The notes beneath the pieces are model-generated. The model searched no databases and had not been told where the DNA came from. It saw only the letters and a list, made by a program, of their open reading frames with translations. From contig CP136069.1 in assembly GCA_032622095.1 (NCBI GenBank), positions 40,152,194 through 40,216,193 of the forward strand: a stretch of DNA of 64,000 nucleotides, given 5' to 3'. Positions 6,094 to 45,552 of the stretch are shown one piece after another. Source of the DNA: Siphonodentalium dalli (Eukaryota; Mollusca; Scaphopoda; Gadilida; Siphonodentaliidae). The position numbers were made by a program, and so were the translations under genes. How positions within the stretch are numbered: position 1 is the first letter of the stretch; the number at the start of each line of letters is the position of its first letter.

Positions 6094-6248
6094 CCATAAC
6101 AAGTTGAGTTTAGAGAACACATTTACGACTGACAAATTTAACGCCTCGGTAACTGGGGCAAGACATTTCACACCAGTCAAGGGCATTATTGCCAATCTCC
6201 AGATCCGAAATGTCGGAATAGGGAAGGATCATACAGTATTCATAACAA
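6094..6248 (+). CDS. RCC1–dsRBD gene, first exon visible in the window (RCC1 blade)
   Basis: Acceptor tcattgcag at 6085-6093 and donor gtaagt at 6249. The exon is open in one frame, starting in phase 2 and ending in phase 1, and gives 51 full codons. The C-terminal half reads RNVGIGKDHTVFIT, the 'GxGxxHTxxxT' strand-and-turn of an RCC1 propeller blade. The next exon supplies the matching 'DGG..HMGSN' start of the following blade, and the split codon across the junction is Ile. There is no start codon, so at least one more exon must lie upstream. I did not find it with matching phase between 1 and 6093. RCC1 propellers act as protein-binding or exchange-factor scaffolds; which role applies here cannot be read from the sequence. 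Confidence 0.75.
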
Positions 6249-6312
6249 GTAAGTATTCCAAAGATCTCAAATGTTGATATTATTCAACCCTTGAAATAGT
6301 GTGTCTTTCATT

Positions 6313-6405
6313 TGCAGAATGAGGTCCCCAGAGGGTGAATTTAGTGATGCTATCCCGCATGTCTGATTAGCATCACCAAATCACCCTTTGTGAACCTCAT
6401 TCTGC
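6313..6405. mobile_element. palindromic MITE, 'gcagaatgaggtcc' family
   Basis: Starts gcagaatgaggtccccagag and ends with the inverted form (cctcattctgc). The interior is an imperfect palindrome around tagtgatgctatcc. Other copies: 6584-6668, a half copy at 6786-6834, 15242-15335, 15484-15578, a decayed piece near 15722-15768, 36554-36646 and 44575-44667. Several sit within a longer shared repeat ending ccctaatttgcagaagat. Confidence 0.75.
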
Positions 6406-6583
6406 TTAGGACTCAATTGCTATGGGAAACCTAGGATCAGATTGAAGTTCCCCATTAATCACCTCGATTATGCATTTCATCTTCTGCAAATTAGGGGATA
6501 TAGAAACGGAACAGAAAGGAAAAAGTAACTAAAAACAATGTTAATTTGAGGCTATAGATACATCCCAGAAGATTAGGCCTAAT

Positions 6584-6668
6584 CAGAATGAGGTCCACAG
6601 AGGATGAATTTTAGTGATGCTTGCCGACTGTGCATCACTAAATTCACCCTCTGGAGACCTCATTCTGC
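6584..6668. mobile_element. palindromic MITE, 'gcagaatgaggtcc' family
   Basis: Second copy of the family, with ends cagaatgaggtccacagagg and ctggagacctcattctg. A decayed right half follows at 6786-6834. Confidence 0.75.
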
Positions 6669-6954
6669 AAATGTCTGACATAAAAAGTTCAACTAACAGT
6701 CTAATGATCGAATGAAATAAAAAACATTGATTAAGGTACAGTAATTATTACGACAACAAGAATCTAAAAACATTAATAAGGGTACCAAGTATAGCATCAC
6801 TGAATTCATTCTCTGGAGACCTCATTCTGCAAATGATAGACACACTATTTCAAGGCTTGATATTAATACGATATCCCTTTTGTTTATCTCATCAAACGTT
6901 GAGCACAATTTGAGACCCGTGTTTGTGTTATGAAGATTTGCCTAATTGGCAGCT

Positions 6955-7299
6955 TTAACCCTTCCATGACTGGAGCTTCCTGAAGTTTTGCGAAAACCCT
7001 GAGCCAATGCATTCTCTTATATTTGCGAGTCTCCCAATAGGGAGCTTCGCATATATAAGAGTATGCATTGGCCTAACAATATTTACCGTGACCTTGTAAG
7101 ACAGAGCATTCTCTTATATGTCCCTAAAGGAGACTCCCATATATAAGAGAATGCACTGGCACAGGATCTTTAATGCTGTGTCAGCGCAGTTCCTATCATA
7201 TACGGGATAAAGGGCTTTTCATCCTGTCCTTAGAATATATGAATAGTGAAATTTTGTCTGTCAGATTTCAGATCAGATTTTTCATAATGAAAGGGTTTA
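6955..7299 (+). mobile_element. TTAA-flanked MITE, type I, with a disrupted right end
   Basis: Starts TTAAcccttccatgactgga. It holds two copies of the palindromic core (cattctcttatatttgcgag with its inverse, then a second pair). Near 7199 the right terminus is interrupted by about 90 bp before the final aatgaaagggtttaa at 7286-7300. Confidence 0.7.
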
Positions 7300-7656
7300 A
7301 ATACAAAAATGTGAAAAATGCCTTCCATAATGAGTGGCATAATAATTTTTGTCCCCACATCTGGTTGTAACATTCAATCTGATTGCATACAAAGATACAC
7401 CAAAATTACCATGATCTCAGTCACCAGGGGCAACATGGATATAAGAGCAGTGAAACTACAGGTGTTCATGAATTACATGTACCTTTGCTCTGGCATTTTC
7501 GACCAATTGTGACATTGTTCTTGCGTCACCTCGCTGACGACACATGTCATCTACTGAATTTGTGCTGTTGATGTGAATCAGTATGAGAATCTGATGAAGA
7601 CCAAACCATACTTGAGATTCTATGCCCATTGTTGTGGAGACAGAATGTTATCTTCA
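7300..7656 (+). repeat. segmental duplication, copy 1
   Basis: Contains tgtccccacatctggttgta and a 'tgatgaagaccaaacc' stretch. It is repeated, with a MITE before each copy, at 7922-8066. That second copy is interrupted and resumes at about 14755-14935. Period to the second copy is about 617 bp. Confidence 0.8.
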
Positions 7657-7921
7657 TTAACCCTTCCATGACTGGAGCTTCCTGATATTTTGCGAAAACC
7701 ATGTGCCAATGCATTCTCTTATATATACGAGTCTCCCATAGGGAGCCTCACATATATATAAGAGAATGCATTGGCCTAACAATATTTACCTTGATCTTTT
7801 AAGCTAGTGCATTCTCTTGTATATGCGAGGCTCCCTATTTGTGACTTGCATATATAAGAGAATGCACTGGCACAGGATTTTTAATGCTGCACCAGCGCAG
7901 CTCCCATCATGAAGGGGTTAA
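7657..7921 (+). mobile_element. TTAA-flanked MITE, type I, near complete
   Basis: Starts TTAAcccttccatgactgga and ends catgaaggggTTAA. Two palindromic cores (about 7707-7770 and 7807-7867) are separated by a spacer containing aacaatatttaccttgatc. Reference copy for type I. Confidence 0.85.
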
Positions 7922-8066
7922 AATGTGAAAAAGGCCTTCCGTAATGAACGGGGAATGTTTGTCCCCACATCTGGTTGTAACATTCAATCTGATTGCATAC
8001 AAGGATACACCAAAATTACCATGTTCTCAGTCACCAGGGGCAACATGGATATAAGAGCAATGAACC
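7922..8066 (+). repeat. segmental duplication, copy 2, left part (interrupted)
   Basis: Matches 7305-7450 closely (tccccacatctggttgtaac, caccaggggcaacatggat). Homology stops at about 8066 after ataagagcaatgaac and resumes at about 14755. Confidence 0.8.
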
Positions 8067-8164
8067 AATGGGTATATAGTGTATTGTAATTCAATTGAGT
8101 ATTTGTCACTAAAAACAAGCATTCTGATTGGCCGAGAGCGGCTAACTTTAGTTTTCGATTCACC

Positions 8165-8370
8165 GACATCGGCCACTTCAGCGTGCATCAAATCTGAATG
8201 TAGCACATTCAAATTGCATCGGCGCAGAACGAGTAGCGAAACGAGCACACCCGCGCGTTGTTGTCTATAGATACCGTTCATCGGCCGCTTCAGCGTGCAT
8301 CAAATCTGAATGTGGCACGGTCAAATTTCAACGGCGCAGAACAGAGTAGCGAAACGAGCCAACCCGCCCC
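8165..8370. repeat. two tandem units of about 113 bp
   Basis: The phrase cagcgtgcatcaaatctgaa occurs at about 8179 and 8291, followed in both by cggcgcagaac and gtagcgaaacgagc. The segment is GC-richer than its surroundings and lies inside the inserted block 8067-14754. Confidence 0.75.
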
Positions 8371-8539
8371 ACAGGAAATGGTTACGGAGCAGTGTTCCGA
8401 GTAACGCAATGAACAAACCCAATGATTTGTGCACGGTGACAATGGCGAAATGAAAGTCTCGATTCGTGTCATGAAAATGACTAAATGATACTTTTTATAC
8501 AGTTTTTTTGCAAATTCCTTGCTAGATTGAATTACAATG

Positions 8540-8683
8540 GAGATAAACGTACCCTGTTTCGTTGTACATTCTGGGATTCGAGCATGAAAACAGTTTGTGA
8601 ACTCGCCGGCAAGCCGGCTCGTTCACAAACTGTTTTCATGCTCGAATCCCAGAATGTACAACTCAACAGGGTATGTTTATCTC
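8540..8683. repeat. 144-bp near-perfect hairpin
   Basis: The left arm begins gagataaacgtaccctgttt and the right arm ends with the inverse (ggtatgtttatctc). The arms of about 70 bp meet at cgccggcaagccggc. It abuts the left end of the long-TIR element at about 8690. ORFs on both strands are mirror images and not genes. Confidence 0.85.
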
Positions 8684-8689
8684 CTAAGT

Positions 8690-10173
8690 GACTTAGCGAC
8701 AAAATTTTGTCATATTGGAACGGACTGGCCAAAAGTGCTATTTTTTTATATTATGTCAAGTTAGGTGTGCTCTTTCAGAAAGTGAACTAGAAACAGGTTT
8801 CTGGTCAATATTAACCCTTGTTTCCAGTATAAATCCAAGATGGCGGCCAAATTAAATCATTATTTCACCATGACGTTCCAACTGGTATACAATTTAAGGC
8901 ACATGCATAATAAAGGCGTCATTCCATCCGGCATTGTCATATTTTGAAGATATTAGCAATCCAGGTTGACCAAATTTGAAAATTATCACTTTTTGGACCA
9001 AAAGCATGAAATTTTGTCATAAAATCATTCTCGTTTCAATTATTTCGGAATAATCAGACAATTTCTCAAAACTGTTCCAGTGCAGATCAAAAGTTAAGAT
9101 CTTAAAAATTTCAGAAATGTATAATGCAAACAAAATATACAACATCTAGGACAAATTCATAACCATATTTTAGACATTTTGGATTATGTTACCCCTCACC
9201 CCAAAAATCATGAAATTTTGTTTTTGTGATAAACATCCGATAGAACATGGATGAGAATCTATAAAGGACACTATTCGATAACATTTCTAAATACTGTAAT
9301 TCCAATTACACACACAATTACCAAAGTTGAAATTTACAACTTTTTCGACTAAAATATGCAATTTGGTAAGAAAATCCTCGTCATTTCAAATATTTTGGTC
9401 CAATAAATGATCATTTACACATAGGATATTTGCGATATTTCAAAATGTTTGGTCTTAAATGTTTTGGACATATATACTGAAAACAATGAATACATTTTCT
9501 GTGGTTAATATGTTACAACGTTTCAGAAAATTTGGTTTATGTTACCCCTCACCCCAAAAATCACGAAAATGTGACTTGGTTGTAACGATTCAATAAATCT
9601 TTGGTTAAATCTTATAAAGTGAGTTTTTCGATGACAATTAGTCATATATTGTTATGTAACAATCTCATTGACAGTATACTGTTTAAATTTACAATTGTAT
9701 GCCTAATAACAGCTATATTTTATGGTAAAATAACCATCATTTCAAATATTTTCAACCAATATATGGGCAATTTCTCAAACATTTCCCAAGATCGTATACC
9801 ACATGTGGCCTTGAAAGTTTCGAAAATGACTGTCGAATACAACACATTTAAAGGTGTATACATGTCATGTCTTGGTGAAATAGAATAAAATTCTAAAAAT
9901 CTATTATACCATAAATAATTTGAAGGTGTTGACTTATATAATCTACAAATGTAACATACAAGAGGGGGTATATATAGACATGTATGTAGTTCAGATCACA
10001 ACTTTTAATTTGTCTATCAATAATACACATAACATAAAGATGTTCTATCGTTGTTTATACTCTGTTCTTAAATTCACGTTTGTTATGTCGTACCTGTATA
10101 ACAATAATGTGCACAGTCTGATCATACCAAACGGATATATAGCAACTCATAGATTGTCATGTTATAATCACCG
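8690..10173 (+). repeat. left terminal inverted repeat of the long-TIR element
   Basis: Key landmarks shared with the right arm are gttacccctcaccccaaaaa, found twice (about 9188 and 9540), and aagatggcggccaaatt near the outer end. Open frames at 9601-9888 and 9920-10177 lack conserved features and are not called. Confidence 0.8.
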
Positions 10174-10213
10174 GTGACCATATTGATACATTGAACAAAT
10201 ATTTTAGGCATTC

Positions 10214-11491
10214 TTAACTCATTGAGTGCCAGGTCTCCTGAGGGGAATCGATATCTGTACGCCATGTCTCCTGGGAAAAAAGAACATTATTCACACTAAC
10301 TATATATTTAGTTTGACTATTCAATATAGGACAGAATCGAATTGACAGCAGGCATTGCTAGTATAGAATCTATGACCTGCTTTTAAACTCCATGTCCGGT
10401 ACTCGGGGGTCATCATAGGTCAAAAATTTCATGTTGCCATGGCAACGAGGAATTAAAATTGACACCGATTGACTGAAATCACAAAGTTGTTGTTTTGTGT
10501 GGCCATCTAAATAATTTATTCAGTGTAGTTTTAGACATTAATTTTGCTGGTGTAATAACATAGCATTTTAGAATGGCAATTAGGATCTGGGGGGGAGGGT
10601 AATCAGTGTGACTAAACGAATTTTGTGAATGGGATGACGTTTACAATGAACACTCTCCGAGAAAAGCAGATTATTAAATTGAAAACTATTTGGAAATGTA
10701 TATATGAGGTTCGGCACAGCAGCAATTTGGAAATGTATTGTTTCGTTCTTTTTGGCCTATAATAGTCGCACTTTCCGCTGTGGGACGTACTTCCAGTTTG
10801 TACTGTATCTAGGTGACAATGCCACATATTAGTACATCGGATTAACCCGGTGACGATTATATCCGATTCAGCGCATTGACCCCCCCCTTAAGATACAGAG
10901 TTTGATTGACATAATGTGTATGTTGTCGACATCAGTGTTCCTGTGTCATTTGGTGTCAAACCAAGTTTACGATGGATCAGGGCATGCCCGACTTTATAGG
11001 AATCGACCTTTACGCAATTAAAATCGGTTTCCAATTAACAGATATGTACGCTGTATCCGTTGACCTCTTAGAGAGTTTGAACTCTGCAAGTCTAAGTCAC
11101 GCCCACAGATCACATCAATTTTCACCACCTGTTTTCATACGACTGTATCTCCTAAACGCCTCGACATGCGGAGCTGCCTGATGCGTCATTTTAACGGAGA
11201 CATGCTGGGCTATACCCCGATGTACAAGTTGAATCTGCGCATGCGCGTATATACAGAACCCTCCCCCCCCCCCCCCCCCCCCCTTGAAAATTAAACAAAC
11301 ACTTCTCCCAAAATGTGACTTGTAGTATGCAGGGTTCTAATCATGTGCAAACAGATTGAAATTGTGAGATTGGATTAGAAGGCAGAATGTTACAAACGGT
11401 GTGTGTTGGGCGACGAGTTATCTCGTCGCCAGCGCTCAGATGGTGTCTTTCGGGCGACGAGATTTCTCGCCGCCGGCACTCAATGAGTTAA
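10214..11491. mobile_element. TTAA-flanked element, 'ctcattgagtgcc' ends, type IV
   Basis: Begins TTAActcattgagtgccagg and ends ggcactcaatgagTTAA. Near the right end are two short GC hairpins, ggcgacgagttatctcgtcg and gggcgacgagatttctcg. The ends resemble type III MITEs (TTAAccctttgagtgccagg). Frames inside (for example 10972-11181) have no support. A C tract of about 24 nt lies at 11260-11284. Confidence 0.6.
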
Positions 11492-11513
11492 TATCACAAT
11501 TACAACTGCATAA

Positions 11514-12530: not shown

Positions 12531-12614
12531 ATGACATTAACACTTCTTAGTTTGTAGAGTAGAAACTTCATTGGTGACTGTGTAATCATTAAAAGTACAT
12601 GTAGGCACAATTAT

Positions 12615-15849: not shown

Positions 15850-16008
15850 TTGATGGTGGATGTATTCATATGGGATCCAACACAAATTTCCAGCATGGAT
15901 TCAGCTCTCAGAATACTAAAACTAAACAACCAATGGAGCGACTGTTAGGACTCTACAGTCCTACAACCATCGCTTGTGGGGATTCCATAACATTCTGCAT
16001 CACAGATG
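15850..16008 (+). CDS. RCC1–dsRBD gene, second visible exon (RCC1 blade)
   Basis: Acceptor tatgattttcag ends at 15849 and donor gtaagt starts at 16009. Length is 159 nt, phase 1 to phase 1. It encodes one complete RCC1 blade: DGGCIHMGSNTNFQHGF at the start and TTIACGDSITFCITD at the end, the usual 'DG.l..wG.N..gQlG ... ia.G..ht..lt' pattern with Ser in place of the usual His. An ATG inside the exon (the HMGSN Met) is not needed as a start, because the frame stays open to the acceptor and joins the exon at 6094 in phase. The intron before it is 9.6 kb. Confidence 0.85.
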
Positions 16009-25896: not shown

Positions 25897-26410
25897 GGGC
25901 CCTCCCATGGCGGTGCCATTCCCAACCCCGCAACTCGCCAATCTCCTGATTGAGTTGAAAATAAACTGACGAATTCAATCGGTTATATTGGGACTGCGCA
26001 TGCGTGACTGATTCCGAGCAAGCCACTGAAGACCGCGAGGGATCGTAGGCGACCACAAAAAGTTAACCCCTTTTCTACTATGGTTTACAAACGCAGGACA
26101 TATATCCATATAGTTCAGTGTGAACGGCTTTCTTTAAGGAAATATATATTATATTTTTTAAAATATCATATCAGGTCGCTCGAAGGATGGGTGTTTCACT
26201 GAATACGACAAGAAAACACAGCCACTCTCAAGAAACTGGCCTCGCGAAAGATCATTTCAAAATTGGACAGGCTTTCATGACATAGCCAGTTTCATGACAA
26301 TGAGTTTTCTTATCGCAGTCTGTGAAAAAAAACCATTCTACGAGTGACAATCATTAGGGAGGTGTTTACATCAAACACTTCTATGGTGATAACTCTTGCT
26401 TGGTCCGCCA

Positions 26411-26667
26411 TTAACCCTTTGAGTGCCAGGTTGATTTTTGTATCAACCCATATATCCTGTACCAATGCATTCTCTTATATATGCGAGTCGACCATAGGTC
26501 GTCTCGCATATATAAGAGAATGCATTGGCCTAACAATTTTTTTTTGTTTGTTTTTTTTTTTTTTTACAATTTTTTACAATTTTAATAATTTATTCTTATA
26601 TTCTCCAACAGACTTATTTTGTAGGTTTAGGGCCGATGAGATCGGCCCCTGGCACTAAAAGGGTTAA
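26411..26667 (+). mobile_element. TTAA MITE, type III, 'ccctttgagtgccagg' ends
   Basis: Begins TTAAccctttgagtgccagg and ends tggcactaaaagggTTAA. One palindromic core, about 26463-26529, with the centre gaccataggtcg. Poly-T follows. It has inserted into the right inverted repeat of the 21.3-27.0 kb element. Confidence 0.85.
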
Positions 26668-27477: not shown

Positions 27478-27636
27478 GTGGCAGTCTATTTTCTTGGGGA
27501 CGATATTCAGAACATCACCAACCCAGTGTGCCGTACATCCCGCACAGAATACAGTTGAATACTAAACAATATCGAGGTGTTTTTTCTATGGTATCAATGG
27601 CATGCAGCTCAAAGAATATACTTATAGCTATTACTG
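27478..27636 (+). CDS. RCC1–dsRBD gene, third visible exon (RCC1 blade)
   Basis: Acceptor ttatatttttag ends at 27477 and donor gtaatt starts at 27637. Length is 159 nt, phase 1 to 1, the same length and phase as the previous exon. The junction reads CITD-GGSLFSWGRYSEHHQ, the textbook RCC1 'DG.lfsWG' turn, and the blade ends MACSSKNILIAIT, where the usual Gly and His are lost. Equal-length symmetric exons encoding single blades are what blade duplication by exon copying would leave. The last blade is degenerate, so this may be the end of the propeller before the linker in the next exon. Confidence 0.87.
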
Positions 27637-27656
27637 GTAATTAAAGATTCATAATC

Positions 27657-28038
27657 CAAATTAACGCATTTTTGGCTTTGGGGGTAAATATTTGAATCGA
27701 GTCGAATAACCCACCCATCAAAGCTCAGAGTGATCAGATATCAATTTTTGAAATTTGTTATTTCCCGAGATATGTAATTCTTGGCAGCCTGCAAATAATC
27801 GTCAAGCCGACGGTCTCGGACCTATTGCGGATGAAGATGGATAACTCTAAAATCAAGTGGCTTTGGTTGTTAGATATTTGATAAGTAACACGTTTTCGGC
27901 AATATTTTATAATATAGTTGACTATAGCATTATATTTGGGCAATTAATCATTTGTGATAACTAAAGCGGCATTTAAAAAAATGTTGTTGTTGGAATCTGA
28001 TGAGATGGGAACCATCAAATCGGAATTGTACCTTTAAC
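27657..28038. mobile_element. copy of the 'ttaaaggtactcaatcc' TIR element
   Basis: Starts ttcataatccaaattaacgc just inside the intron and ends ggaattgtacctttaac. The interior matches 1840-2073 and 3818-4077 (caaagctcagagtgatc in inverse, gatggataactctaaaatca). Confidence 0.5.
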
Positions 28039-28189
28039 CACCAAGATAAATACCGTTAGTAAAGTGGAAAGTATTGTCCTCGTAGGTTTTGCAAAGGCCA
28101 AGTTTCCTTCGACCAGCTAGTGAAGTTGGTTGGGATAATGCTGATTTTCGTTGAAGCGCCATGCATATATCTTTCTATAGCAGACTTTA

Positions 28190-29560
28190 TATGCAGATAC
28201 AGTGGCGGGATTATTTAGTCAAGTTTATTTTTATCAAAAACTCAACTTATGGTTTGATGAGGACTGGCGGCTGGCTGGGCATTCCCAAACCTGTATAACA
28301 TAGCTGTTTAAGATTGAATCTGGCAATTTTTGTTACGTGAGTTTATTGTCACATGAGACAGCTGCATACAGAAAATCAGGGTCTGCTCCGACTTTCTAAC
28401 CAGATTTATGCCATTTGTTTCTATATGTAGCAAAGTTATGTCCCTCATCGCGATAACTTAAACAGTTACAGATACAATTTTCTTATAACCCATGTCTAAG
28501 CAATCACTGAAGCACTGCCCAGAGTCCATTGAATGCCATGTGATTTTCATTGACCAGCACACTTGAATACTGTAGGTAAAAACATATCGTGATACTTCCA
28601 CATTGTATGAATTTTGGACTGAAGTTTCTTAGGCCTTTTTCATTATGCATATATTTCAATCACTACCAGCTACCAGTGCTAATTTATGGGCATGGGTTTT
28701 GTTTTATGATCTTGTTTGTGTTAAGTCTACTACCATTCCACTATTTTTAGTCAATTTTTTTTTCATAAACTTGACTTATAGTTTGATGAGGGACGAGTTC
28801 GAAAACCAGATCCTTTTTAGCTCAGCTCAACTTTACTTTGTAAAGTTTGAGCTATTGCTGGGGGTTGCTGTCTGTCATCCGTCCATCCATCCGTCAACAA
28901 TTTCCTTTGGCCCACCCTACAGGCCATATCCCTCATCCGATCATCACCAAACTTCATATGGCTCTTCGGGGTGACCTCTAGATGGGAGCCATCGATATTT
29001 TCCGAAATTTAAAAAAATTTAAAACATTGCCGCCGACAGCCATTTTGAATTTCAAATTTGAATTGACACACCCTGCAGCCCACATTTATTGCAGGAATGT
29101 TTTGAAAATTAACAGGCATGTTTGGGATCACCTCTAGATGTGAGCCGTGGAGCTTGAACAATTTACAATGAAAAACATGGCCGCCGGCAGTCATCTTGGA
29201 TTTAACTTTTTGCATGACTAAATCCTCACATATATAAGAGAATGCATTGGCCTAACAATATTTACCTTGACCTTGTAAGCCAGTGTCTTTTCTTATGTGT
29301 GCGAGGCTCCCTAAGGGAGACTCACATATATAAGAGAATACACTGGCACAGGATCTTTATTGCTGCACCAGCACAGCTCCCCGTCTTGAAAGGGTTAATT
29401 CATGGGTTTTGTTTTTCCATTTATCATCTTGTTTATAAGGTTACTAGTACTACCATTCCACTGTTTTTAGTCAATTTTTTATTCTTAAACTCAACTTATG
29501 GTTTGACGAGGAATAGTTTTAAAACCAGATTTGTTCGATCCTTTTTACCTGAGTTATGGC
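28190..29560. repeat. cluster of dispersed repeats in intron 3
   Basis: The phrase ctcaacttatggtttgatga and its variants occur at about 28233, 28765 and 29490 (also 36166). Between them, 28816-29222 begins agctcaactttactttgtaa and carries two units of the 'ccgcc-gcagccat' array. Open frames at 28645-28974 and 29242-29580 run across repeat borders and are not genes. Confidence 0.7.
29225..29398 (+). mobile_element. TTAA MITE, type I, 5'-truncated
   Basis: Starts inside the first core (tcacatatataagagaatgc) and ends cttgaaagggTTAA. The second core has diverged. Confidence 0.7.
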
Positions 29561-29775
29561 CCTTAGTTGGTCTATTTTAAGAACATTTGTCACCAATGAA
29601 TAGGAATCTATATAAATACAAAATACAATACCATATATATATACTTTTATTCCTTCTGCACTTATATTATCTTTTTGCCTGTCCGTTGTCTATTTTTCAA
29701 TTTTCTAATTTCCCCCATATGAATAATAGACCATTCATTCGCACATACACTTTTAGAACTGAATGGCAAAATTCA

Positions 29776-29960
29776 TTAATCCTTCCATGACTGGAGCTTC
29801 CTGAAATCTAGCAAACACACTGTGGCCTAATAATATTTACCGTGACCTTGTAAGTCAGGGCATTCTCTTATATATACAAGGCTCCCTATGGGAGACTCGC
29901 CTATAAAAGAGAGTGCACTGGCACAGGATCTTTAAAGCTGCACCAGTGCAGTTCCCATCG
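29776..29960 (+). mobile_element. TTAA MITE, type I, decayed
   Basis: Starts TTAAtccttccatgactgga. It retains one core pair (about 29864-29918) and stops at cagtgcagttcccatc without the terminal repeat. Confidence 0.65.
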
Positions 29961-30111
29961 TTACATTCATGTACTTGTGAAAACTTTATATTTATATTAT
30001 CTATCGACCAGGGACATATCATTTTATTAATATACTTGTATATATGTTTAGTGAAATCATCACCTGACTTATTATTTCTCTGCACATGGAGACAGTCCTC
30101 GTGACTATGTC

Positions 30112-30228
30112 ACATTCCCGAGAGCTTTCCGATGAATGGCAACAAGCCATATTTCCGACTAAATCCTGAAAAGTTACCCATAATTCTGCTGTGGTTAAGA
30201 AGTCGATTACTTAGAGCATTACTGTACC
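30112..30228 (+). mobile_element. MITE, 'cagtaatgccctaa' family, left end lost
   Basis: Matches 44767-44898 from gagagctttccgatgaatgg to gcattactgta. The left TIR is missing. It ends 54 bp before the acceptor of the next exon. Confidence 0.75.
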
Positions 30229-30282
30229 ATACCATACCATCAATTGGTTACATAATTTGATAGTCTCTGGCTTTTATTTCAG

Positions 30283-32179
30283 ACCGAGAGAAGGCATTAC
30301 CTGGAGAAAATCTCCTGCGATCAAGCAGGAAGTTTCTGTCTGCACAGCCATTTCAGACGGTAGGAGATTGCACACCAGGCTCTTTTACACAGCTGTCGAA
30401 ACAGAAATTTCCACAGGTGGAAATGGAAACCACCAACCCTGTAATTGGTAGCCCGATTACATCAATGAAAAGCCAAGTTAGCACAGTTGGTAGCCAAGCC
30501 AGTGCAATTGGTAACAAAGTCAGTGCAAAGCAGTGCAATGAAATATCTGGTAATAACAGTGGAATATCTGCCCAATTCGGTGGAATGTCAAAACCTATAG
30601 GTTTGATGAGTATATCCGTGGATCGACCTGACAGCCTAGACGAAAAGCAGGACAATGAAATGTCTGGTGTTGACAGTGGAACGTCCGGTGGAATCTCAAA
30701 ACCTATCGGATTGATGAATATCTCCGTGGATCGACCTGACAGCCTAGCTGAAATACCTTGGAGTATTTTACAAGGCAGGCCTGTCAAAAAGAAATTTATT
30801 AAAGCCAAGAAAGTAAATCCTCTCATGCCAGTGACTAATCCTCGTATCAATTCCACGACTAATCTTTCTAAACTCGTGAAAAATGAATTGAGGCTTGGAG
30901 ATTTCCATGAAGTAAAGAAATACTTTGCTCATAATCAAATTACTGAAAAAACAAACCTTGGTGATTACTTACGCAAGGCGTTGACAACCGGGTATATGCA
31001 TTTTGCCTGTTATTTTGGTGTTTATCTCATCAAAGGTGAGAAGATGTCAGTTGGCTCAATGGAGTTTGTTAGCAAGTTTCCAGGCCGAAGAAGAACAGTA
31101 ATGACCGCTGAAGGACTTTCTGGACAAGACGCTCGAACTAAGCTCTGCAAAAAAACTGTTGAAATGATTGAAACATATACGCCAGAGGAACTTGAAAATG
31201 TTTCGTGCAAAAGTCTGAACGACACTGTTGTCGAGTTAAATGGCATTGGATCAATGGATAGGGGCTTCACTATGGAGCAAAAGTTTGAGGTATTGCAGAA
31301 GTTCATAAGAGATAGTAAAGCTTTGGCATCATCAATGTGGGAACGACCGCTGATGTTATTTGGCGCGGCACTCAAAGAAGTAACTAAGATGGATCCACGA
31401 TTTAAGCATGAGGCATTCCCGGGTAAAACACGTTGCTTTCTGTACATTGAGGAAATTCTTGTTGGGTATGCTGAAGGATCAGGATTGAAAGCCGCTAAAT
31501 ACCAATGCGCTCTTGTCACAATGAAAAATTTTGTTGAAAAACCTGTTGGCGAAATCTTAAAAGGAATTAATTTAAGTGATATTCCAGAAGAAACAGAGTT
31601 AGAGGTCAAATACCAGCCTCAAAATCTGAGCATCGAAGGTAAATTAAAAGTTGCATCCTTGGCATTTACTAAACTTAAATATAAATTTGCGTTGAAGAGA
31701 GCTGGGATCTCAGCTAGTTATGTGTTTTACAAGGATAAATCTGGGGCAAACCACTGTGAGTTCTATCTCGAAAACTATTCAATTGCTTCTGTATTAGTCA
31801 CTTTGAACCACCAGGGATTTATTCGTGATGACTGCTTCAATGCTGCAGCTGATGTCCTGCAAAACAAGTCGCCTCAACAAATTCTCGAGGTGGCGAAGAT
31901 TTTACCCAGCGACGCTCGCAAACGTCGAGATTATTATGTTAATGATATCTGTGAGGGAATTTTGCAGAACAATAGGATCACGCATATTCTCTGGTCGCCA
32001 TCCTATGAGGACTGTGTTCAACAGAAGTCGCTCGACTCTATGGTGCTGTTTCAAGAAGCCTATCTTCCCAAAAGGACACCTCTTACGCCACAATCACATG
32101 TCAGGGACAACGCCAACATTTGTGGGATGCTACTTGAATGGCCGATTGTCAGAATACATGAATTAAGTGATATCTATAA
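30283..32179 (+). CDS. RCC1–dsRBD gene, large fourth exon (linker and dsRBD-like array)
   Basis: Acceptor cttttatttcag ends at 30282; donor gtgagt starts at 32180. Length is 1,897 nt, phase 1 in, phase 2 out, 631 full codons. The frame is open up to the acceptor, so an internal GTG or ATG near 30417 is not the start. Order: a Ser/Thr linker with a short 'SQ.S..G' repeat; a 36-residue tandem duplication (SKPIGLMSISVDRPDSL and SKPIGLMNISVDRPDSL, starts 30588 and 30696); a basic patch RPVKKKFIKAKK (possible nuclear signal). Then dsRBD-like units: one ending RTVMTAEGLSGQDARTKLCK (about 31095-31150), the clearest with RCFLYIEEILVGYAEG then KAAKYQCALVTMKNF (about 31430-31530), a third around ANHCEFYLENYSIASVL (about 31748-31860), and the start of a fourth completed in the next exon. 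Fold calls are by eye. Role unknown; RNA binding in the nucleus is inference. Confidence 0.93.
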
Positions 32180-32193: not shown

Positions 32194-32668
32194 TATACCC
32201 TTTGAGTGCCAGGGGCCGATCTCATCGGCCCTAATTAATGGTCTGTAAAATCGGCCCTAAAAAATAAAAAAAATAAAAAATTTGTTTGTTTTTTTGGTTG
32301 AATTTTTTTTGGGTATGCTTAAGCATGCTATAGCGAATTTAAAAACAAACTGGATAAAACCTTAAGTGCATGTTATAACTCAAAACTATCACCAAGTATT
32401 CATAGTAATAATTTTGATGCCCATGAAAAACGTGAGATTCCCTGGCACTAAACCTACAAAATAAGTCTGTTAATGAATATAAGAACAAATTATTAAAATT
32501 GTAAAAAATTGTAAAAAATAATAACAAATGATGAAAAATTGTTAGGCCAATGCATTCTCTTATATATGCGAGGCGACCTATGGTCGACTCGCATATATAA
32601 GAGAATGCATTGGCACAGGGTATATGGGTCGAAACAAACAAAATCGGACCTGGCACTGAAAGGGTTAT
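32194..32668 (+). mobile_element. MITE, type III, long form, just after the exon donor
   Basis: Starts ccctttgagtgccaggggcc and ends tggcactgaaagggtta. The flanks read TATA/TTAT rather than clean TTAA. One core lies at about 32545-32617. The extra interior (32240-32460) is AT-rich and not shared with 26411-26667. It begins 14 bp beyond the splice donor of the large exon. Confidence 0.7.
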
Positions 32669-33709
32669 ATATATACTGGATTGACTTGTCCATCTGTCTG
32701 TCCATGCATATATCTCAGCCATCTGTTAACTAATTATACCCCCACTCTCAAAGAGAATTGGGGTATACTGAATTGGCTGGGTCTGTCCATCCGCTCCAAT
32801 GAAAGGGTTTATTGGGTTTGGACTTCGGTATATACAGGTTTACGCACTATTTGGATTGATAGGCTCAGGCCTTTTTATCCAATGCCATATTAACTGTTGT
32901 TAAATCATTTTAACACAACTTTCTGAAAACCATGATAAGTTGGACCAAGTCTGATTGCCATACTGTCCTTGCATACTGGACAACTTAATCACATATATAC
33001 TGGCTGAAACAGGCTCCCCTTTGGGAGTGTCATGTAAATTTATAGTAAAAAAGCATGTGTTTTTAATATTTTCAATAGTAAACAACCTTTCTTGTGGCAT
33101 AATTATCATCTGCAAACGAAGTTTTGCAGCTAATATAGACTATCTCAGTAATCATAGATATACTTATGAACCAAAATGGGGGAGGAATATCCAGGTGGAA
33201 CGGATTTCATCCATTCATTTGTTACAGAGTTGTTATACGACACTTTTCAAAGACAAATTGTGGTTAAACTGCATTGAATTTGTAGTCTGTCTGTCTGCCC
33301 GTCCGTCCATCCAGGCATATATTTCTGCCTTGGTGTTATCAGATCTGAATAAAATAACAGCTTTCAAAATGGGGCCAAATTATGTTGTTCGCGTTTTCCA
33401 TTCTAGAGTTATCCTTCTTTGTTTACCTGGATAACTTGGGTTTTTTTTGTCCGTCTGCACAGATTATCAGATCTGACTAAAATGTGGAATGGAGGTTCGC
33501 CGTCATGTTGCCTTCAAAAGAGTACCCAAATAATTATAACAGTGTTTACATTTTCTGTTCTAGAGTTACCATTTTTTGTATATCTTTAATTTGTATTTTA
33601 ATTTGACAAAGTGGGGGTATGTCAGCACCTGAGGTGCAACTTCTTGTTTTCCTTAGTGTAAAAATGTGCCAAATTTGGATCTCTGCATCTCCATCATTGT
33701 AGGTCATGT
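32669..33709. other. intronic sequence with short 'gtccgtctg' repeats
   Basis: Contains several diverged clauses such as gtctgtctgcccgtccgtcc and gttatccttctttgtttacc, related to 41880-42060 and 58650-59020. No gene is seen. The frame at 32955-33434 crosses these repeats. Confidence 0.45.
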
Positions 33710-35094: not shown

Positions 35095-35215
35095 ATGTTG
35101 TGTGCAACTGGAAGGCTTTGAGATTGGAGGTGCCACTGGAAAACAGAAAGGTCTTTTGGAGCAGGCCTTCAGAAATGCCCTGCTCCAATTGTATGAAACA
35201 TGTCCAGTTATTGAG
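35095..35215 (+). CDS. RCC1–dsRBD gene, fifth visible exon (end of the fourth dsRBD-like fold)
   Basis: Acceptor atatattttgcag ends at 35094 and donor gtatag starts at 35216. Length is 121 nt, entering in phase 2 and leaving in phase 0. In the frame set by the previous exon it reads CCVQLEGFEIGGATGKQKGL then LEQAFRNALLQLYETCP. This is the last beta strand, the Gly-rich loop with GKQK basic residues, and the second helix of a dsRBD. The first half of the fold lies at the end of the large exon (LLEWPIVRIHELSDIYK). The other two frames also stay open for some distance, but only this one fits phase and fold. Confidence 0.85.
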
Positions 35216-37753: not shown

Positions 37754-38950
37754 TTAACACTTCCATGACTGGAGCTCAGTGTTTGCGCTGGACCTAAATA
37801 TTTTGTAGCCAAAAGTTTAGCCAAATGAAAAAAACTTTGGCCAAATTTTTTTTGGCCAAATTAAAAATATTTTTTTTAAACTTTATTTGTTACTCAGAAT
37901 AAAAACATACTAAAACAACACAAAAACAACTTTAAAAACAATTTTATACGAACATTGGTATGTGTTATATCGCACAGACAGATCAATTCATGTAAAGCAT
38001 TAATACAAAATACGGCAGGATTTCACATCTGACCATATGCAAAAAGCCCGGTGAAAATCAGTCAGAATTTGTTTATCGCGGAGACGATGGACTGTTCTAG
38101 CTATGGTTGATACGTATTTTCCTTCATGTTTTACTCTCCTTCAACATTTGTTCAGTAGTTAACTGAAATGAAATTCGCAAACATGAAACCAACATTCTAT
38201 ATAATTATTTATATTTCACATACGCTAACTATTGCTTATTGTAGGAAGGTGATAACTGTTGAATATATATTGTATTCAAACCTTTTGTGATTTGAAGCCA
38301 GGTCGTTATTAGACGGGATGCAGTTTACGTAATCACTGAGTTAAGACCTTCTTGTCTGTACACCCAATTAATGAACAATGCATTTAGGTATTTTATCTTA
38401 CAGACTGCCTAATCAACAAAACATTACAGATTAACGAGCTCACTGGTTAAATGTTAGAGCTTACCTGTTGCTGTCTTGTGAAGTTTGATTTTGTGTAGTG
38501 AATGTGAATGATGGATACTATTCCGATCTGCCAATTTATTGGACATTACAAAAACACTCCATTCGATCTATTCAGCGCTTTTTAAATAATTAGCTTTCCG
38601 TCTCCATTTCAGGTAAAAAAAAAATTAGCCAAATGAATTTTTTATTAGCCAAATTCGAAAAAGTTTGGCCATAGGCTAATTTGGCCACCGACAGCGCGAC
38701 CACTGCTGGAGCTTTCTGAAATTTTGCTAATACCCTGTGCCAGTGCATTCTATTATTTTTGCGAGTCTACAATTGGGAGCCTCACTTATATAAGAGAATA
38801 CATTGACTTAATAATATTTACCTTGTCCTGATAAGTGCATTCTCTTATATATGCGAGGCTCACTGCTGGAGACCCGCATATATAAGAGAATGCATTGGCC
38901 CATGATTTATAATGCTGCACCAGCACAGCTCCCTTCATGAAAAGGTTAAA
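37754..38950 (+). mobile_element. TTAA MITE, type I, split by a hAT-like insertion
   Basis: The left piece, 37754-37776, is TTAAcacttccatgactgga plus gct. The right piece, from 38706, resumes ctggagctttctgaaatttt and ends tcatgaaaaggTTAA. It has two cores in the right piece. Removing 37777-38713 restores an ordinary type I element. Confidence 0.85.
37777..38705. mobile_element. hAT-like non-autonomous element, 929 bp, 8-bp TSD
   Basis: Flanked by ctggagct on both sides (37769-37776 and 38706-38713). Ends are CAGTGtttgcgctgg and, inverted, CAGTGgtcgcgctgt. An 8-bp target duplication and CAGTG termini are hAT hallmarks. Sub-terminal inverted clauses ttagccaaatg/catttggctaa and ggccaaat are seen. 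No transposase frame is present. Confidence 0.85.
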
Positions 38951-39058
38951 GAGCAATGTTAATTAAATCTTTCTTTTGTAAATACTCATTGACGAGTAGC
39001 TCCCATAGGACATGTTCAGATATTAAGTTCAAAAAACACTTTTGTTGAACTTATTATA

Positions 39059-39457
39059 TTAACCCTTTACCCAACAAAGCGGCCAAAACCGGCCAAATAA
39101 AGCTTCAACAGCCTAAAATATCTTCGGTCTGTCTCAATAGAACCATACAAATATGGATATCATTGGAACCGGCTCATTGACCACATTGTGATGGTTACAG
39201 TTATACCCTGTGCCAATGCATTCTCTTATATATGCGAGTCGACCATAGGTCGCCTCGCATATATAAGAGAAAGCATTGGCCTAAAAAAAATCTTTTTTTA
39301 ACACTTTTTACCATTTTTTCTTACATTCTTTAACAATTTTATAATTTTTAATGTGTTAAGCCAATGCATTCTCTTATATATGCGAGGCGACCTATGGTCG
39401 ACTCGCATATATAAGAGAATGCATTGGCACAGGGCCTTCTGTTGGGTAAAGGGTTAA
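39059..39457 (+). mobile_element. TTAA MITE, type II, 'ccctttacccaacaaa' ends
   Basis: Begins TTAAccctttacccaacaaa and ends tgttgggtaaagggTTAA. Two near-perfect 66-bp cores (about 39215-39280 and 39362-39427) with centres gaccataggtcg and cgacctatggtc. Confidence 0.9.
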
Positions 39458-39485
39458 CAAATTAATGGAAATCATTCTGCACTTG

Positions 39486-41287
39486 TTAGCTCAACTTTAC
39501 TTTGTAAAGTTTGAGCCATTGCCATGGCTTGGTATCTGTCGTCCGTGTGTGTGTGTGTGTGTGTATGCGTGAGGGTGTGTGTGCGTGTGTGATTCATCAA
39601 CAATTTCCTTTAGCACGGGCTACAGGTCGTACCTTTGGTCGGATCATTATGAAATTTGTCATAGCTGTTGACATTGACATGTAGATGGGAACGAGTCAGT
39701 GGCCATCTTGGATTTAAAAATTCAATCCATTAGCACGGGCTACAGGCCGTACTGTTTGTCTGATCATCATGAAATTTTTCATGAATGTTAATATTGAGAT
39801 GTAGATGGGAACGAGTCATTTTGGGGTCATTCGGCTAAAAAACATGGCCTGCAGCAGCCATTTTGGATTTTACTCTTTGCATGACTAAATCCTTTGGCAT
39901 GGGCTACAGGTCGTACTTTTAGTCGGATCATCATGAAATTTGTCACAGATGTTGACAATGACATGTAGATGGGAACGAGTCATTTTGGGGTCATTCGGCC
40001 AAAAAACATGGCCACCAGCAGCCATCTTGGATTTTACTCTTTGCATGACTAAATCCTTTAGCACGGGCTACAGGTCGTACCTTTGGTCGGATCATTATGA
40101 AATTTGTCATATATGTTGACATGTAGATGGGAACGAGTCATTTTTGGGGCATTTGACCAAAAAAAATGGCTGCCAGTGGCCATCTTTGATTTCAAAATTC
40201 AATCCATTAGCACGGGCTACAGGCCATACTGTTTGTCTGATCATCATGACATTTTTAATGGATGTTAATATTGAGATATAGATGGGAACGAATAATTTTG
40301 GGGTCATTCGGTTAAAAAACATGGTCGCCAGCAGCCATCTTGGATTTTACTCTTTGCATGACTAAATCCTTTGGCACGGTCTATAGGTCATACCTTTAGT
40401 CGGATCATCATGAAATTTGTCACGGATGTTGACAATGACATGTAGATGGGAACAAGTCATTTTGGGGTCATTCAGCCATAAAACATGGCCGCCAGCAGCC
40501 ATCTTGGATTTTACTCTTTGCATGACTAAATCCTTTGGCACAGGCTACAGGTCGTACTGTTCGTCTGATCATCATGAAATTTGTCAAAGATGTTAATATT
40601 GACATGTATATGGGAATGAGTCATTTTGGGGTCGTTCGGCCTAAAAACATGGCTGCCAGCAGCCATCTTGGATTTTACTCTTTGAATGACTAAATCATTT
40701 GGCATGGGCTACAGGTCCTACCTTTGGTCGGATCATTATGAAATTTGTCACGGCTGTTGACATTGACATGTAGATGGGAACGATTTATTTTGGGGTCATT
40801 CGGCAAAAAAACATGGCTGCCAGTGGCCATCTTGGATTTCAAAATTCAATCCATTAGCACGGGCTACAGGTCGTACTGTTCATCTGATCATCATGAAATT
40901 TGTCATGGATGTTAATATTGACATGTAGATGGGAACGAGTAATTTTGGGGTCATTCGGCCAAAAATCATGGCCGCCAGCAGCCATCTTGGATTTTACTCT
41001 TTACATGACTAAATCCTTTGACACAGGCTCCAGGTCGTATCTTTTGTCGGATCATCATGAAATTTGTGATGGATGTTAACAGTGACATGTAAATGGGAAC
41101 GAGTCTTTTTGGGGTCATTCGGCAAAAAAACAAGGCTGCCAGTGGCCATCTTGGATTTTACTCTTTGTATACATGTAACTAGGCCTTTCAACTTTCCACA
41201 TTCCTAATCACTCCATTGAGTGTAACACATGAAATTATTCCCTTTCCAAGTTGAGCTACAGTGTCATTGACACTTTCATATTATCTT
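39486..41287 (+). repeat. tandem array of the 'gatgggaacgagt' family with both ends
   Basis: Starts gctcaactttactttgtaaa and ends gagctacagtgtcattgaca. A (gt)n tract lies at 39543-39590. Units of about 160-170 bp alternate two subtypes, catggccgccagcagccat with ttttactctttgcatgacta, and a 'gccagtggccatcttggat' subtype with caaaattcaatccatt. No gene. Confidence 0.85.
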
Positions 41288-41475
41288 TTCACCTGTCTGT
41301 GTCTTCAGCTTACATTTCCTGAACACCCCTCCAGATTAATAATAGACAATTCCCATATATACTTTTATAACTGATGGGAGAAATCCATTCAGTAAAGAAA
41401 GGCTTAAACAAATTCTCTCGTTTGGTGAATGCAAAACTTCCTACATGTAGCTAAAATAATTTTCATCATTCACAG

Positions 41476-41671
41476 AAAAGTGAACTCACTGATGACTACA
41501 TTGAAAACATTGCAACAACAATGACTGATTTGGAGGTACTATCCAGAAAGTATACCAACAAAGAAGGTAGCAGTTTTCCAGAGGACGGCCATCCTGGCAG
41601 ACAGAGAGGCATGAATCGTGCAAATCAACAACAATACACAGGACCCACAATTCATCCCAGTTCCTCTGCAG
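41476..41671 (+). CDS. RCC1–dsRBD gene, sixth visible exon
   Basis: Acceptor cattcacag ends at 41475 and donor gtattg starts at 41672. Length is 196 nt, entering in phase 0 and leaving in phase 1. The frame begins KSELTDDYIENIATTMTDLE, an acidic, helix-like stretch, then a low-complexity Gly/Arg/Gln/Asn region (GRQRGMNRANQQQYTGP). No domain is recognised. Both junction phases fit the neighbours. The exon is too short and has no ATG near its start, so it would be missed by an ATG-based search. Confidence 0.8.
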
Positions 41672-41879
41672 GTATTGTATGATTTAAGAAATCAACAACT
41701 CGGTACTCTAGTGTTCCAAATGAAAGTGCATGTATGGGGAGGGGGGAGTTGAGAGGTGGGGGTAAATCCGTCTGGTCAGATATCTCAACCACTGGTTGTC
41801 GGATCCCAATGATATGGTATAGATGTTCATATGAGAGCATTCAATGGAGTGTTCATTCATTTTGTTCAGGTTTTCCGTT

Positions 41880-42126
41880 ATTATTCATCATTGTTTATCT
41901 GGAAATGTTGAATTTTTTGTCCGTCCAACAGCATCCAAGCAGATATCTCCACCACCGGCTGTTGGATCTCAATGAAATTTGGTATGGTTGTTCATAGGAC
42001 ATTCAATGAAGTGTTCAGTTGTTTTGTTTGGATTTTCCATTTTAGAGTTATTCATCTTTGTTTATCTGGAACTCTTGATTTTATGTCCTCCCCAGCAGAT
42101 ATCTCAGCCACAGGTTTCCTGATCTC
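41880..42126 (+). repeat. dispersed repeat, 'gtttatctggaaatgtt' family
   Basis: Two clauses of about 120 bp, each with ttcatctttgtttatctgga, a gtcc-rich stretch, agcagatatctc and aatgaaatttggtatgg. Related copies lie at 42735-42860 and 58640-59110. Confidence 0.65.
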
Positions 42127-42729
42127 AATGAAATTTGGTATGGATGTTCACTATGAGGTCATTCAGAAGAGTGTTCAATGAAATTTGGTACGGATGTTCA
42201 CTATGAGGTTATTCAGAAGAGTGTTCAATGAAATTTGGTATGGATGTTCACTATGAGGCCATTCAGAAGAGTGTTCAATGAAATTTGGTATGGATGTTCA
42301 CTATGAGGGCATTCAGAAGAGTGTTGAATGAAATTTGGCATAGATGTTCACTATGAGACCATTCAGAAGAGTGTTCAATGAAATTTGGTATGGATGTTCA
42401 CTATGAGGCCATTCAGAAGAGTGTTCAATGAAATTTGGTATGGATGTTCACTATGAGACCATTCAGAAGAGTGTTCAATGAAATTTGGTATGGATGTTCA
42501 CTATGAGGGCATTCAGAAGAGTGTTCAATGAAATTTAGCATAGATGTTCACTATGAGACCATTCAGAAGAGTGTTCAATGAAATTTGGTATGGATGTTCA
42601 CTATGAGGGCATTCAGAAGAGTGTTCAATGAAATTTGGCATAGATGTTCACTATGAGGCCATTCATAAGTGTGTTCAATGAAATTTGGTATGGATGTTCA
42701 CCACTATGAGGGCATTCAGAAGAGTGTTC
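42127..42729 (+). repeat. 50-bp minisatellite, about 12 copies
   Basis: Unit begins aatgaaatttggtatggatg and ends cattcagaagagtgttc. Copies start at 42127, 42177, 42227 and so on. Two subtypes (ggtatgg and ggcatag; gaggcc, gagacc and gagggc) alternate irregularly, so the array grew by multi-unit exchanges. Confidence 0.95.
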
Positions 42730-42899
42730 CATTGTTTTATTTGGGTTTTCCGTTCTAGAGTTTTTCATCTTTGTTTATCTGAAAATGTTGATTTTTTTTG
42801 TCCGTCTGCCTGAGTATCTCAACCACATATAGGTTATAGGTATGTCCACATTGGGGTTTGCACCGGGAAACAGCCCAGCTCTTGTTTCAAACACCATCT

Positions 42900-43975
42900 A
42901 TAAGATGTCACGTTTGTTTATGTTTTGACAACTGCGTGGAAGAGGGACACCGGAACAAGCATAACAATAACCATCTCACAGACTGGATAGATGCGCTGTA
43001 GTGGAAATGCCAGTTTCTGTTTATGCACATTCCAGGCAATTTCTTTATCCCGTAATTACTAGTAGGTAGGTAAGAAATTGGCGCAGTTGATAGCTCCCTA
43101 GTAGCAAAAACAATTGTTATTTTAAACCCTTGGTGATCTTTATAACTATGTTAAATTCTCTCAATGTATCGAACATGCAACTAATTAAACATGTATCTAC
43201 ACACATACACTTAGTCCTGCCATATATTTCCCCTGTGAAAAGTAGTCACCGTGATGGTGATCTGCACTTAGCTGCACGTTTATTCGGGGTTCCTCATTTA
43301 GTAAGTTTTATGAGGATTTCCACTCTGCATGTTTGTTTGGGACTGCACGTTTATTATGAACACTAGAGTAATGGGCTGAAGATAGTGACATTTCCCGTCC
43401 CTGCGTTGCATACACAGCAGGAGTGACATCTGGCGGCCATGGAAAATGTGTTGATTGTCAGCAAGAAATCATTTGCGTGATCTAGAACTATTGAATGTAT
43501 GTGGACACTATATTATACCATGCTCCAAAAGTGATCCTTGAAATCTGAAATGATTTTTCATTCTCAGAAAAAAACTACTTTTATTATTTATCGCACATCC
43601 ACATGTCTCTGTTTATATATACAGAGCTGGGAAATTCCGTACTCTGCTCGAAAACCCGGGAATTTGCGAACCAGAAAACTTTATGAGGAAAACAATACCA
43701 TGAGACATTTTTGACCAATCGGATGTTGAATTGATTGCATGACATGACCTTGCGAACCCAAACACAAATAATCATTCCAAGTAATTGCTATTGATTTCAT
43801 CACCCCACCCACGTGTTTGTATTGATATCTATCTAATATGCTGTAATTATTGTACTAAACACTGGCTGCAGAATCTCTTATGATATAGATGTATGCTTGG
43901 CTAATCTTATTAGATTGTGTTGCTATCAACTGAGGAATAGGAAAGACGTTAGTGCAATTGAGTAAAATGTTAATT
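42900..43975. other. intronic sequence, no recognisable feature
   Basis: Ordinary AT-rich DNA. Frames at 43130-43366 and 43584-43775 (minus) have no recognisable product. Confidence 0.5.
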
Positions 43976-44375
43976 TTAACCCTTTACCCAACAAACCGGC
44001 CAAAACCGGCCAAATAAAGCTTCAACAGCCTAAAATATCTTGGGTCTGTCTCAATAGAACCATACAAATATGCATATCATTGGAACCGGCTCCTTGACCA
44101 CATTGTGATAGTTACAGTTATGCCCTGTGCCAATGCATTCTCTTATATATGCGAGTCGACCATAGGTCGTCTCGCATATATAAGAGAATGCATTGGCCTA
44201 AAAAAATCTTTTTTTTTAACACTTTTACCATTTTTTCTTACATTCTTTAACAATTTTATAATTTTTAATGTGTTAAGCCAATGCATTCTCTTATATATGC
44301 GAGGCGACCTATGGTCGACTCGCATATATAAGAGAATGCATTGGCACAGGGCCGTTCTGTTGGGTAAAGGGTTAA
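43976..44375 (+). mobile_element. TTAA MITE, type II
   Basis: TTAAccctttacccaacaaa to ttgggtaaagggTTAA, with two cores. Nearly identical to 39059-39457 and 45919-46307, so recent. Confidence 0.9.
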
Positions 44376-44574
44376 ACGGTTATTAGAGGGGGTGACTCAC
44401 CCCCCATTGAACGTAAGTGAGCCTGGGGATGAAACTTAACTATGGCTGAAGCATGTGTTCAGAAAATAACCTTTGAAACTATGTCAAGACGACTTTCATT
44501 GGGGACATAACAGTTTGAAGCTATTTATAAAGTGATTGATAGCATCAAGCCTTGATATAGTGTGTCTCACATTT

Positions 44575-44667
44575 GCAGAATGAGGTCCCAAGAGGGTGAA
44601 TTTAGTGACCCTATCCCGTACTGCAGGCTAGCATCACAAAATTCACTCTCTGGGACCTCATTCTTCT
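44575..44667. mobile_element. palindromic MITE, 'gcagaatgaggtcc' family
   Basis: Ends gcagaatgaggtcccaagag and tgggacctcattctt. It is followed by a tail shared with 15582-15700 (ttgtttttagttacttttg, ccctaatttgcagaagat). Confidence 0.7.
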
Positions 44668-44766
44668 CAAACTGCATCCTCTGGAAAGTGTCTATAGTAT
44701 CAACCTACATTGTTTTTAGTTACTTTTGTTACTATTCAGTTTCTATACCCCCTAATTTGCAGAAGA

Positions 44767-44898
44767 TACAGTAATGCCCTAATACCTCACTGAGAGCTTT
44801 CCGATGAATGGCAACAAGCCATATTTCCGACTAAATCCTGAAAAATTACCCATAATTCTGCTGTGGTTAAGGAGTCGATTATTTAGGGCATTACTGTA
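44767..44898 (+). mobile_element. MITE, 'cagtaatgccctaa' TIR, TA-flanked, complete
   Basis: TA-CAGTAATGCCCTAA at the left and TTAGGGCATTACTG-TA at the right. The TA duplication and CAGT end fit a Tc1/mariner-type MITE. Copies: 30112-30228 and 62204-62325 (reverse). It lies 70 bp before the last coding exon. Confidence 0.8.
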
Positions 44899-44968
44899 AA
44901 TCACATGGAATTATAACCCTTGTTAGCCCTGAATCAGGCTGATCATTGCATTTAATTAATTGTTACAG

Positions 44969-45552
44969 GTAGTGCAATCACAGGAACCGGAATGATAATT
45001 AATATAGCCCCACCTGTCGACGATCTGTCTCCACCGATGGACAGCCAAGGTTCACAAGCTCCAACAGCTGAAATATCAAAATGTGATCCGAATATAATTG
45101 TTGCCATCAACGGAATTCTCGACGCTCTTATTAATGGACATAAATCAGAGTTTACGGTTTTCGGTGTGGACGTTCTCAGATGTTATCATGATCACATAAA
45201 GAATTATAACAAAAAGAAACTCTGCTTTCGGCAGCAGAGGTCACATGACCCACAAAAACCTTATATAATCTTGCACCATAATCTGAATGCTCAGGAAATC
45301 CTAAGTCTTGCGTATGAAGACAGGCATAATTACATATGGCGACTGCTCAGCAAAGAGGAATACTGGAAGTTAGGCAGTCTTGCTGGGGCTGAAAATGATG
45401 TTGTTGTTGTCAAATCTCTTCCAGTAGCTGCAACAAGTACTGTTTCTGCGCGTTGTACTTCACCTACAAATGATGACATTCATGGGATTGTTCAAGGGGA
45501 TGAGGAGTTTGACATTTCTGGGATACCTGTTGTAGAAGGAATGATGTTCTGA
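44969..45552 (+). CDS. RCC1–dsRBD gene, last coding exon
   Basis: Acceptor aattgttacag ends at 44968. The exon enters in phase 1 and runs 193 codons to TGA at 45550-45552. It opens with a Gly/Thr/Pro/Ser linker, then a block of about 90 residues that looks folded: IVAINGILDALINGHKSE, VDVLRCYHDHIKNYNKKKL, KPYIILHHNLNAQEILSLAY, and RHNYIWRLLSKEEYWKLG. The tail is acidic and ends IPVVEGMMF. I recognise no domain. The stop lies in the first, diverged unit of a 39-bp tandem that continues into the 3' UTR. AATAAA follows 353 bp after the stop. A start at the exon's own ATG (44992) is possible only if this were a separate gene, which the matching splice phase argues against. Confidence 0.88.

Follow-up and report, generated by a model that had tools for sequence, protein, structure and literature searches.

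The 3' part of an RCC1-like gene with a possible C-terminal array of strongly diverged dsRBD-fold units in Siphonodentalium dalli

The 64,000-nucleotide stretch of Siphonodentalium dalli DNA analysed here (contig CP136069.1, positions 40,152,194 to 40,216,193 of the forward strand; hereafter the window, numbered from its first base) carries a seven-exon model of a gene that starts with blades of an RCC1 propeller and continues into a long C-terminal region, in which units resembling the double-stranded RNA-binding domain (dsRBD) had been predicted. When the exons were re-derived from the DNA, they joined into one open frame of 1090 codons including the stop, without internal stop, the sole in-frame stop lying at its end (45550-45552). 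GT was present at all six donors and AG at all seven acceptors, and the junction phases were 1-1, 1-1, 1-1, 2-2, 0-0 and 1-1, reproducing both the borders and the matching phases of the original prediction. The split structure and the large introns are of eukaryotic type. We tentatively read the locus as the 3' part of a single such gene, encoding an RCC1 propeller, a linker and a diverged dsRBD-fold array that may act as a scaffold, a joint reading whose probability we place a little short of even. The features are as follows.

6094-6248, forward strand: exon 1 of the model, internal to the gene, with the last part of an RCC1 blade (...GIGKDHTVFIT); bordered by AG and GT, leaving in phase 1, with RCC1 homology.
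15850-16008, forward strand: exon 2, an RCC1 blade ending ...ACGDSITFCITD; splice borders and RCC1 homology.
27478-27636, forward strand: exon 3, the last recognisable RCC1 blade (GGSLFSWG...SSKNILIAIT); splice borders, homology and blade scan.
30283-32179, forward strand: exon 4 (1897 nucleotides), a low-complexity linker followed by units U1 to U3 and the beginning of U4; no stop between acceptor and donor.
30579-30746, forward strand: linker with the motif SKPIGLM(S/N)ISVDRPDSL repeated twice, read from the translation.
30951-31184, forward strand: U1, a possible dsRBD-like unit (Pfam DSRM_2, E 0.17).
31308-31547, forward strand: U2, a possible dsRBD-like unit (best stretch of the dsrm sum; Loquacious, E 0.7).
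31623-31877, forward strand: U3, a possible unit by pattern only (SGANHCEF, AAADVL).
35095-35215, forward strand: exon 5, the second half of U4, a possible unit across the exon 4/exon 5 junction that begins near the end of exon 4; 4.3 bits, fifth of 2504 open reading frame (ORF) fragments with our own dsRBD hidden Markov model (HMM).
41476-41671, forward strand: exon 6 (196 nucleotides; alternative end 41566); splice candidates and codon score.
44969-45552, forward strand: exon 7, the terminal coding exon (about 193 codons), without a known domain in Pfam.

Exon 1 of the model opens at an acceptor in mid-codon. Therefore, the gene has earlier exons, and while the seven predicted exons stood, the first of them cannot be the start of the gene. 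A simple splice score was weak at the acceptors of exon 1 (0.3) and exon 7 (0.1) and at the donor of exon 5 (0.1), and the acceptor of exon 4 (tttatttcag) ranked top of the six acceptors scored, with 6.1. Exon 6 is open to alternatives: it has two possible donors (splice scores 1.8 and 1.5), the shorter form reducing the frame to 1055 codons; in a scan that left 3 of 10 candidates free of stops, a rival stop-free exon at 37898-37991 scored higher (4.3) than either. Codon usage was compared with 500 null windows per comparison, using a model trained on exon 4 alone. The scores of the first 30 codons of exon 6 and of exon 7 were matched by none of the null windows (stops being permitted in those for exon 7), and that of exon 5 by 23. 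In our judgement, an open frame of 1.9 kb in exon 4 and one of about 193 codons in exon 7 exceed chance length.

Exons 1-3 encode RCC1 blades, as had been predicted. Pfam matches were found to WD40_RLD (E 6.9e-14) and to RCC1_2 (E 3.2e-10), the latter at 39.9 bits against a cut-off of 22, which establishes the RCC1 repeat signature. Only part of the domain is present, WD40_RLD reaching 52.4 of the 150 bits required by its cut-off and RCC1 21.1 of 21.7. Comparison with the PDB gave UVR8 as the best match (1.2e-13), along with HERC2, RCC1 and RPGR. Since the RCC1 matches run across junctions 1-2 and 2-3, both joins have homology support. In addition, exons 1, 2 and 3 all close in phase 1, one base past FIT, CITD and AIT, respectively, the same blade position to within one codon. 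A blade scan with RCC1 queries and a blade HMM covered 2504 ORF fragments from both strands of the window. Exon 2 was the top match of the HMM (7.5e-19), which had been built with the exon 2 sequence included, and no further convincing blade appeared among the fragments, the best beyond exons 1-3 reaching E 0.22 with the queries and 0.57 with the HMM. The earlier exons should therefore lie upstream of the window or be unrecognisable. As to closure of a seven-blade ring, blades were seen in three exons only, and the window did not reveal where the gene begins.

The join of exon 3 to exon 4 decides between one gene and two. The last strand of exon 3, SSKNILIAIT, enters exon 4 in the phase of FIT/IDGG and CITD/GG, with the blade position agreeing within one codon; this shared phase and position favour the join without proving it. 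The splice signals, the phase and the open frame point the same way, and exons 1-3 and 4-7 may belong to one transcript. Alternatively, an RCC1 gene could end with exons 1-3 and an unseen last exon, and a separate gene could begin at METTNPV (30423) within exon 4. The in-frame ATG at 30423 sits in a fair context (purine at -3, G at +4), which makes a separate gene start possible; the 3-4 junction is without homology support, and there are no relatives for comparison, as a genome contig search with exon 4 returned four pattern matches and no relatives, and a viral contig search no pattern matches. For exon 7, the viral contig search gave five pattern matches and no relatives. The codon scores of exons 1-3 also fell inside the null (fractions 0.24, 0.16 and 0.47), for which the tiny training set may be a cause. 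These points weigh against a single gene. Two genes, however, would leave unexplained a good phase-matching acceptor at 30283 and a frame that stays open from there to the ATG, with an in-frame stop (30261-30263) just upstream of 30283; the codon score of these 46 codons was matched by 29 of 500 stop-free null windows. Nor was a clear terminal RCC1 exon found in 27637-30282, where the blade scan gave weak fragments only (best 28431-28496, E 0.35). We consider two genes unlikely.

The three to four dsRBD-like units of the original prediction fared less well than its exons, as no profile score rose above a cut-off. The alpha-beta-beta-beta-alpha patterns of the putative units were read by eye. 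When the 830-residue piece from exons 1-5 was compared with Pfam, dsrm appeared at E 0.11 and 13.6 bits as a sum (cut-off 23); no stretch passed E 5 singly, and the best one, of 29 residues, lay in U2. U1 matched DSRM_2 at 12.8 bits (cut-off 27) over profile positions 16-78 of 79. U2, compared with 177635 PDB sequences, gave a single match, Loquacious, which is a dsRBD, over 43 residues. A Loquacious fragment used as query placed the exon 4 ORF first of the 2504 ORF fragments of the window, at E 0.15. The sole reason for keeping the dsRBD idea is that several weak matches point to one fold class. The refuting condition named with the original prediction, profile searches without a dsRBD score for the four units, thus had a mixed outcome: there was DSRM_2 on U1 and a dsrm sum with its best stretch in U2, and no dsRBD family for U2 alone, U3 or U4. 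On these profiles a dsRBD array is weakly supported and not established, all dsRBD scores being far below the curated cut-offs.

A number of results weigh against dsRBD-fold units. DSRM_2 on U1 was outranked by DUF5038 (E 0.11); U2, U3 and U4 scanned singly gave no dsRBD family in Pfam, and the 438-residue array alone gave only Skp1 (E 0.082). Against the PDB, exons 4-5 as a whole had one match, a non-dsRBD (E 0.77); of the units searched singly (U1, U2 and U4), U1 and U4 had none. Our own dsRBD HMM, built from 14 dsRBD sequences, scored 0.7 bits on exons 4-6, and at least 12 of 2000 shuffles reached 3.5 or more (best 10.1). A type-B HMM built from fragments of Loquacious, PACT and TRBP scored 0.4 and did not find U2. 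AlphaFold2 without an alignment returned a confidence (pLDDT) of 36 for most of exon 4 (30864-32177), which is too poor to use. A Foldseek search with the model of U2 gave 273 matches at E <=10, none at <=0.001 and none under E 1.1, and a usable dsRBD match was absent among the 50 matches listed. One Foldseek match, yeast Dcr1 without its C-terminal dsRBD, was not counted (root-mean-square deviation 17.9). The structure modelling of segments that had been suggested did not decide on the fold: the model of U2 alone, likewise made without an alignment, showed a helix and three strands, then a short fourth strand, and lacked the last helix, at a low pLDDT of 52.

The controls bear on how far such matches can be trusted. 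Ten other ORFs of the window compared with Pfam revealed no recognised gene, and 2 of the 10 gave three chance matches at E 0.03-0.043, none of them a dsRBD; any single dsRBD match could therefore be chance. For the six pairings of one unit with another, 59 of 1000 shuffles equalled the best, U2-U4. In 22 alignments of the units with each other and with dsRBDs, three were equalled by at most 50 of 1000 shuffles, where about one is expected: U1-PKR (27/1000), U4-Loquacious (14/1000) and U2-Loquacious (0/1000), the last pair having been picked after the PDB search. Multiple alignments of the units were in poor register, and no inference was drawn from them. A tail of one RCC1-like gene that is not dsRBD at all, being a lineage-specific alpha/beta or partly disordered region whose patterns were only read by eye, would agree with dsRBD scores under every cut-off, with a dsrm sum lacking a singly passing stretch, with our non-significant profiles, with chance matches in the neighbouring ORFs and with units no more alike than shuffles. 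Such a tail would not account for two different dsRBD families having their best stretches in two different units, nor for the only PDB match of U2 being a dsRBD, and we regard it as doubtful. The dsRBD fold of the units itself stands, in our estimate, somewhat under an even chance, given that no dsrm stretch passes singly and that the array by itself returned no dsRBD family.

For dsRBDs to bind RNA, a GPxH loop and KKxAK at the start of helix 2 are needed. GPxH and KKxAK were each found in none of the four units, so the canonical (type A) motifs are absent and RNA binding is not favoured. Weaker forms were seen, KAAK in helix 2 of U2 and GxxH in U1 and U3 (a GANH loop in U3); shuffles of the 480-residue region also yielded such forms, KxAK in 627 of 2000 and GxxH...F in 204 of 2000. 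An RCC1 propeller joined to canonical dsRBDs that bind structured RNA would draw on the confirmed RCC1 half, the weak dsRBD matches and these residues of U2 and U3, but with both contact motifs missing throughout and no unit above a dsRBD cut-off, we judge it very improbable. The predicted scaffold coupling the propeller to structured RNA is accordingly not supported, and the sole solved relative hinted at, the C-terminal dsRBD of Loquacious, binds Dicer. If the fold holds, the nearest behaviour would be that of the third dsRBD in Loquacious, TRBP and PACT, which is protein binding.

The reading that we prefer, with reservations that keep it short of the halfway mark, is the 3' part of one RCC1-like gene whose product would combine a propeller, a linker and a diverged dsRBD-fold array acting as a protein scaffold. 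The RCC1-like beta-propeller, whose recognisable blades stop at exon 3, would be followed by a flexible linker rich in S, T, G and N and then, towards the C terminus, by several small alpha/beta units, putatively strongly diverged dsRBD-fold domains. As the canonical RNA contacts are absent, the units would be more likely to have protein partners, as has the third dsRBD of Loquacious, TRBP and PACT, or to hold the protein together than to grip double-stranded RNA. A two-ended scaffold would be the likely result, with one partner bound to the propeller and another to the C-terminal array. A wider proposal, that the gene represents a hitherto undescribed family joining an RCC1-like propeller to four degenerate protein-binding dsRBD-fold domains, possibly a bridge from the partners of the propeller to the RNA interference (RNAi) or double-stranded RNA machinery, seems rather unlikely. 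The sequence duplicated within the exon 4 linker, SKPIGLM(S/N)ISVDRPDSL, is a possible docking motif.

In many proteins an RCC1 propeller is a platform for binding, and the part that accompanies it decides the pathway. Similar to the RCC1-like domain (RLD) proteins UVR8, HERC2, RCC1 and RPGR, the model has blade repeats with GxDHT- and DGGSLFSWG-type signatures. Unlike these proteins, it draws its blades from three exons only, as the gene extends beyond the window or its earlier exons went unrecognised, and exons 4-7 matched no domain in Pfam known to follow an RLD. The order of an RLD and a long C-terminal region resembles the HERC family (RLD and HECT), whereas no HECT match was found in exons 4-7 with Pfam, in a scan that covered exon 6 in its shorter form, 35 residues less than the longer one. 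In NEK8 and NEK9, an N-terminal kinase precedes the RLD. The likeness to type-B dsRBDs (the third of Loquacious, TRBP and PACT) lies in the 43-residue alignment of U2 with Loquacious at E 0.7; unlike them, U2 is missed by the profile of the Loquacious, TRBP and PACT fragments. Known type-B members belong to small RNAi cofactors and are not known to follow a propeller. An RCC1 and dsRBD pairing was not announced in the titles and abstract beginnings of the literature found, a coverage that leaves out most subscription journals. If the tail is a dsRBD array, the domain combination would be unannounced within that literature; if it is not, the gene would add one more RCC1-like protein with an unrecognised tail. 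Rfam gave no matches at gathering scores.

The gene and its surroundings also contain several repeats. A 39-base minisatellite of 7.6 copies (45535-45829) starts within the last codons of exon 7, its first unit supplying the stop codon, and read in another frame it has 97 codons without a stop, which encode a 13-residue repeat (DADCTLYMKECYF). Inside the last intron lies a 50-base repeat of 12 copies (42125-42729), and 62835-63054 is taken up by a 44-base repeat (5 copies, 100% matches). Four arrays have units of about 164 bases or multiples thereof (2411-3627, 39724-41167, 49060-49451 and 57031-58003), whose consensus units look related by eye, in the manner of a dispersed satellite. In addition, dispersed elements occur on both strands (26326-26658, 32339-32725, 44018-44386, 46055-46438 and 59864-60262); their translations have ANAFSYICESTIGRLAYIRECIGL or CQCILLYMR(G/V)D...RIYKRMHW in common, and they are probably short repeated elements.

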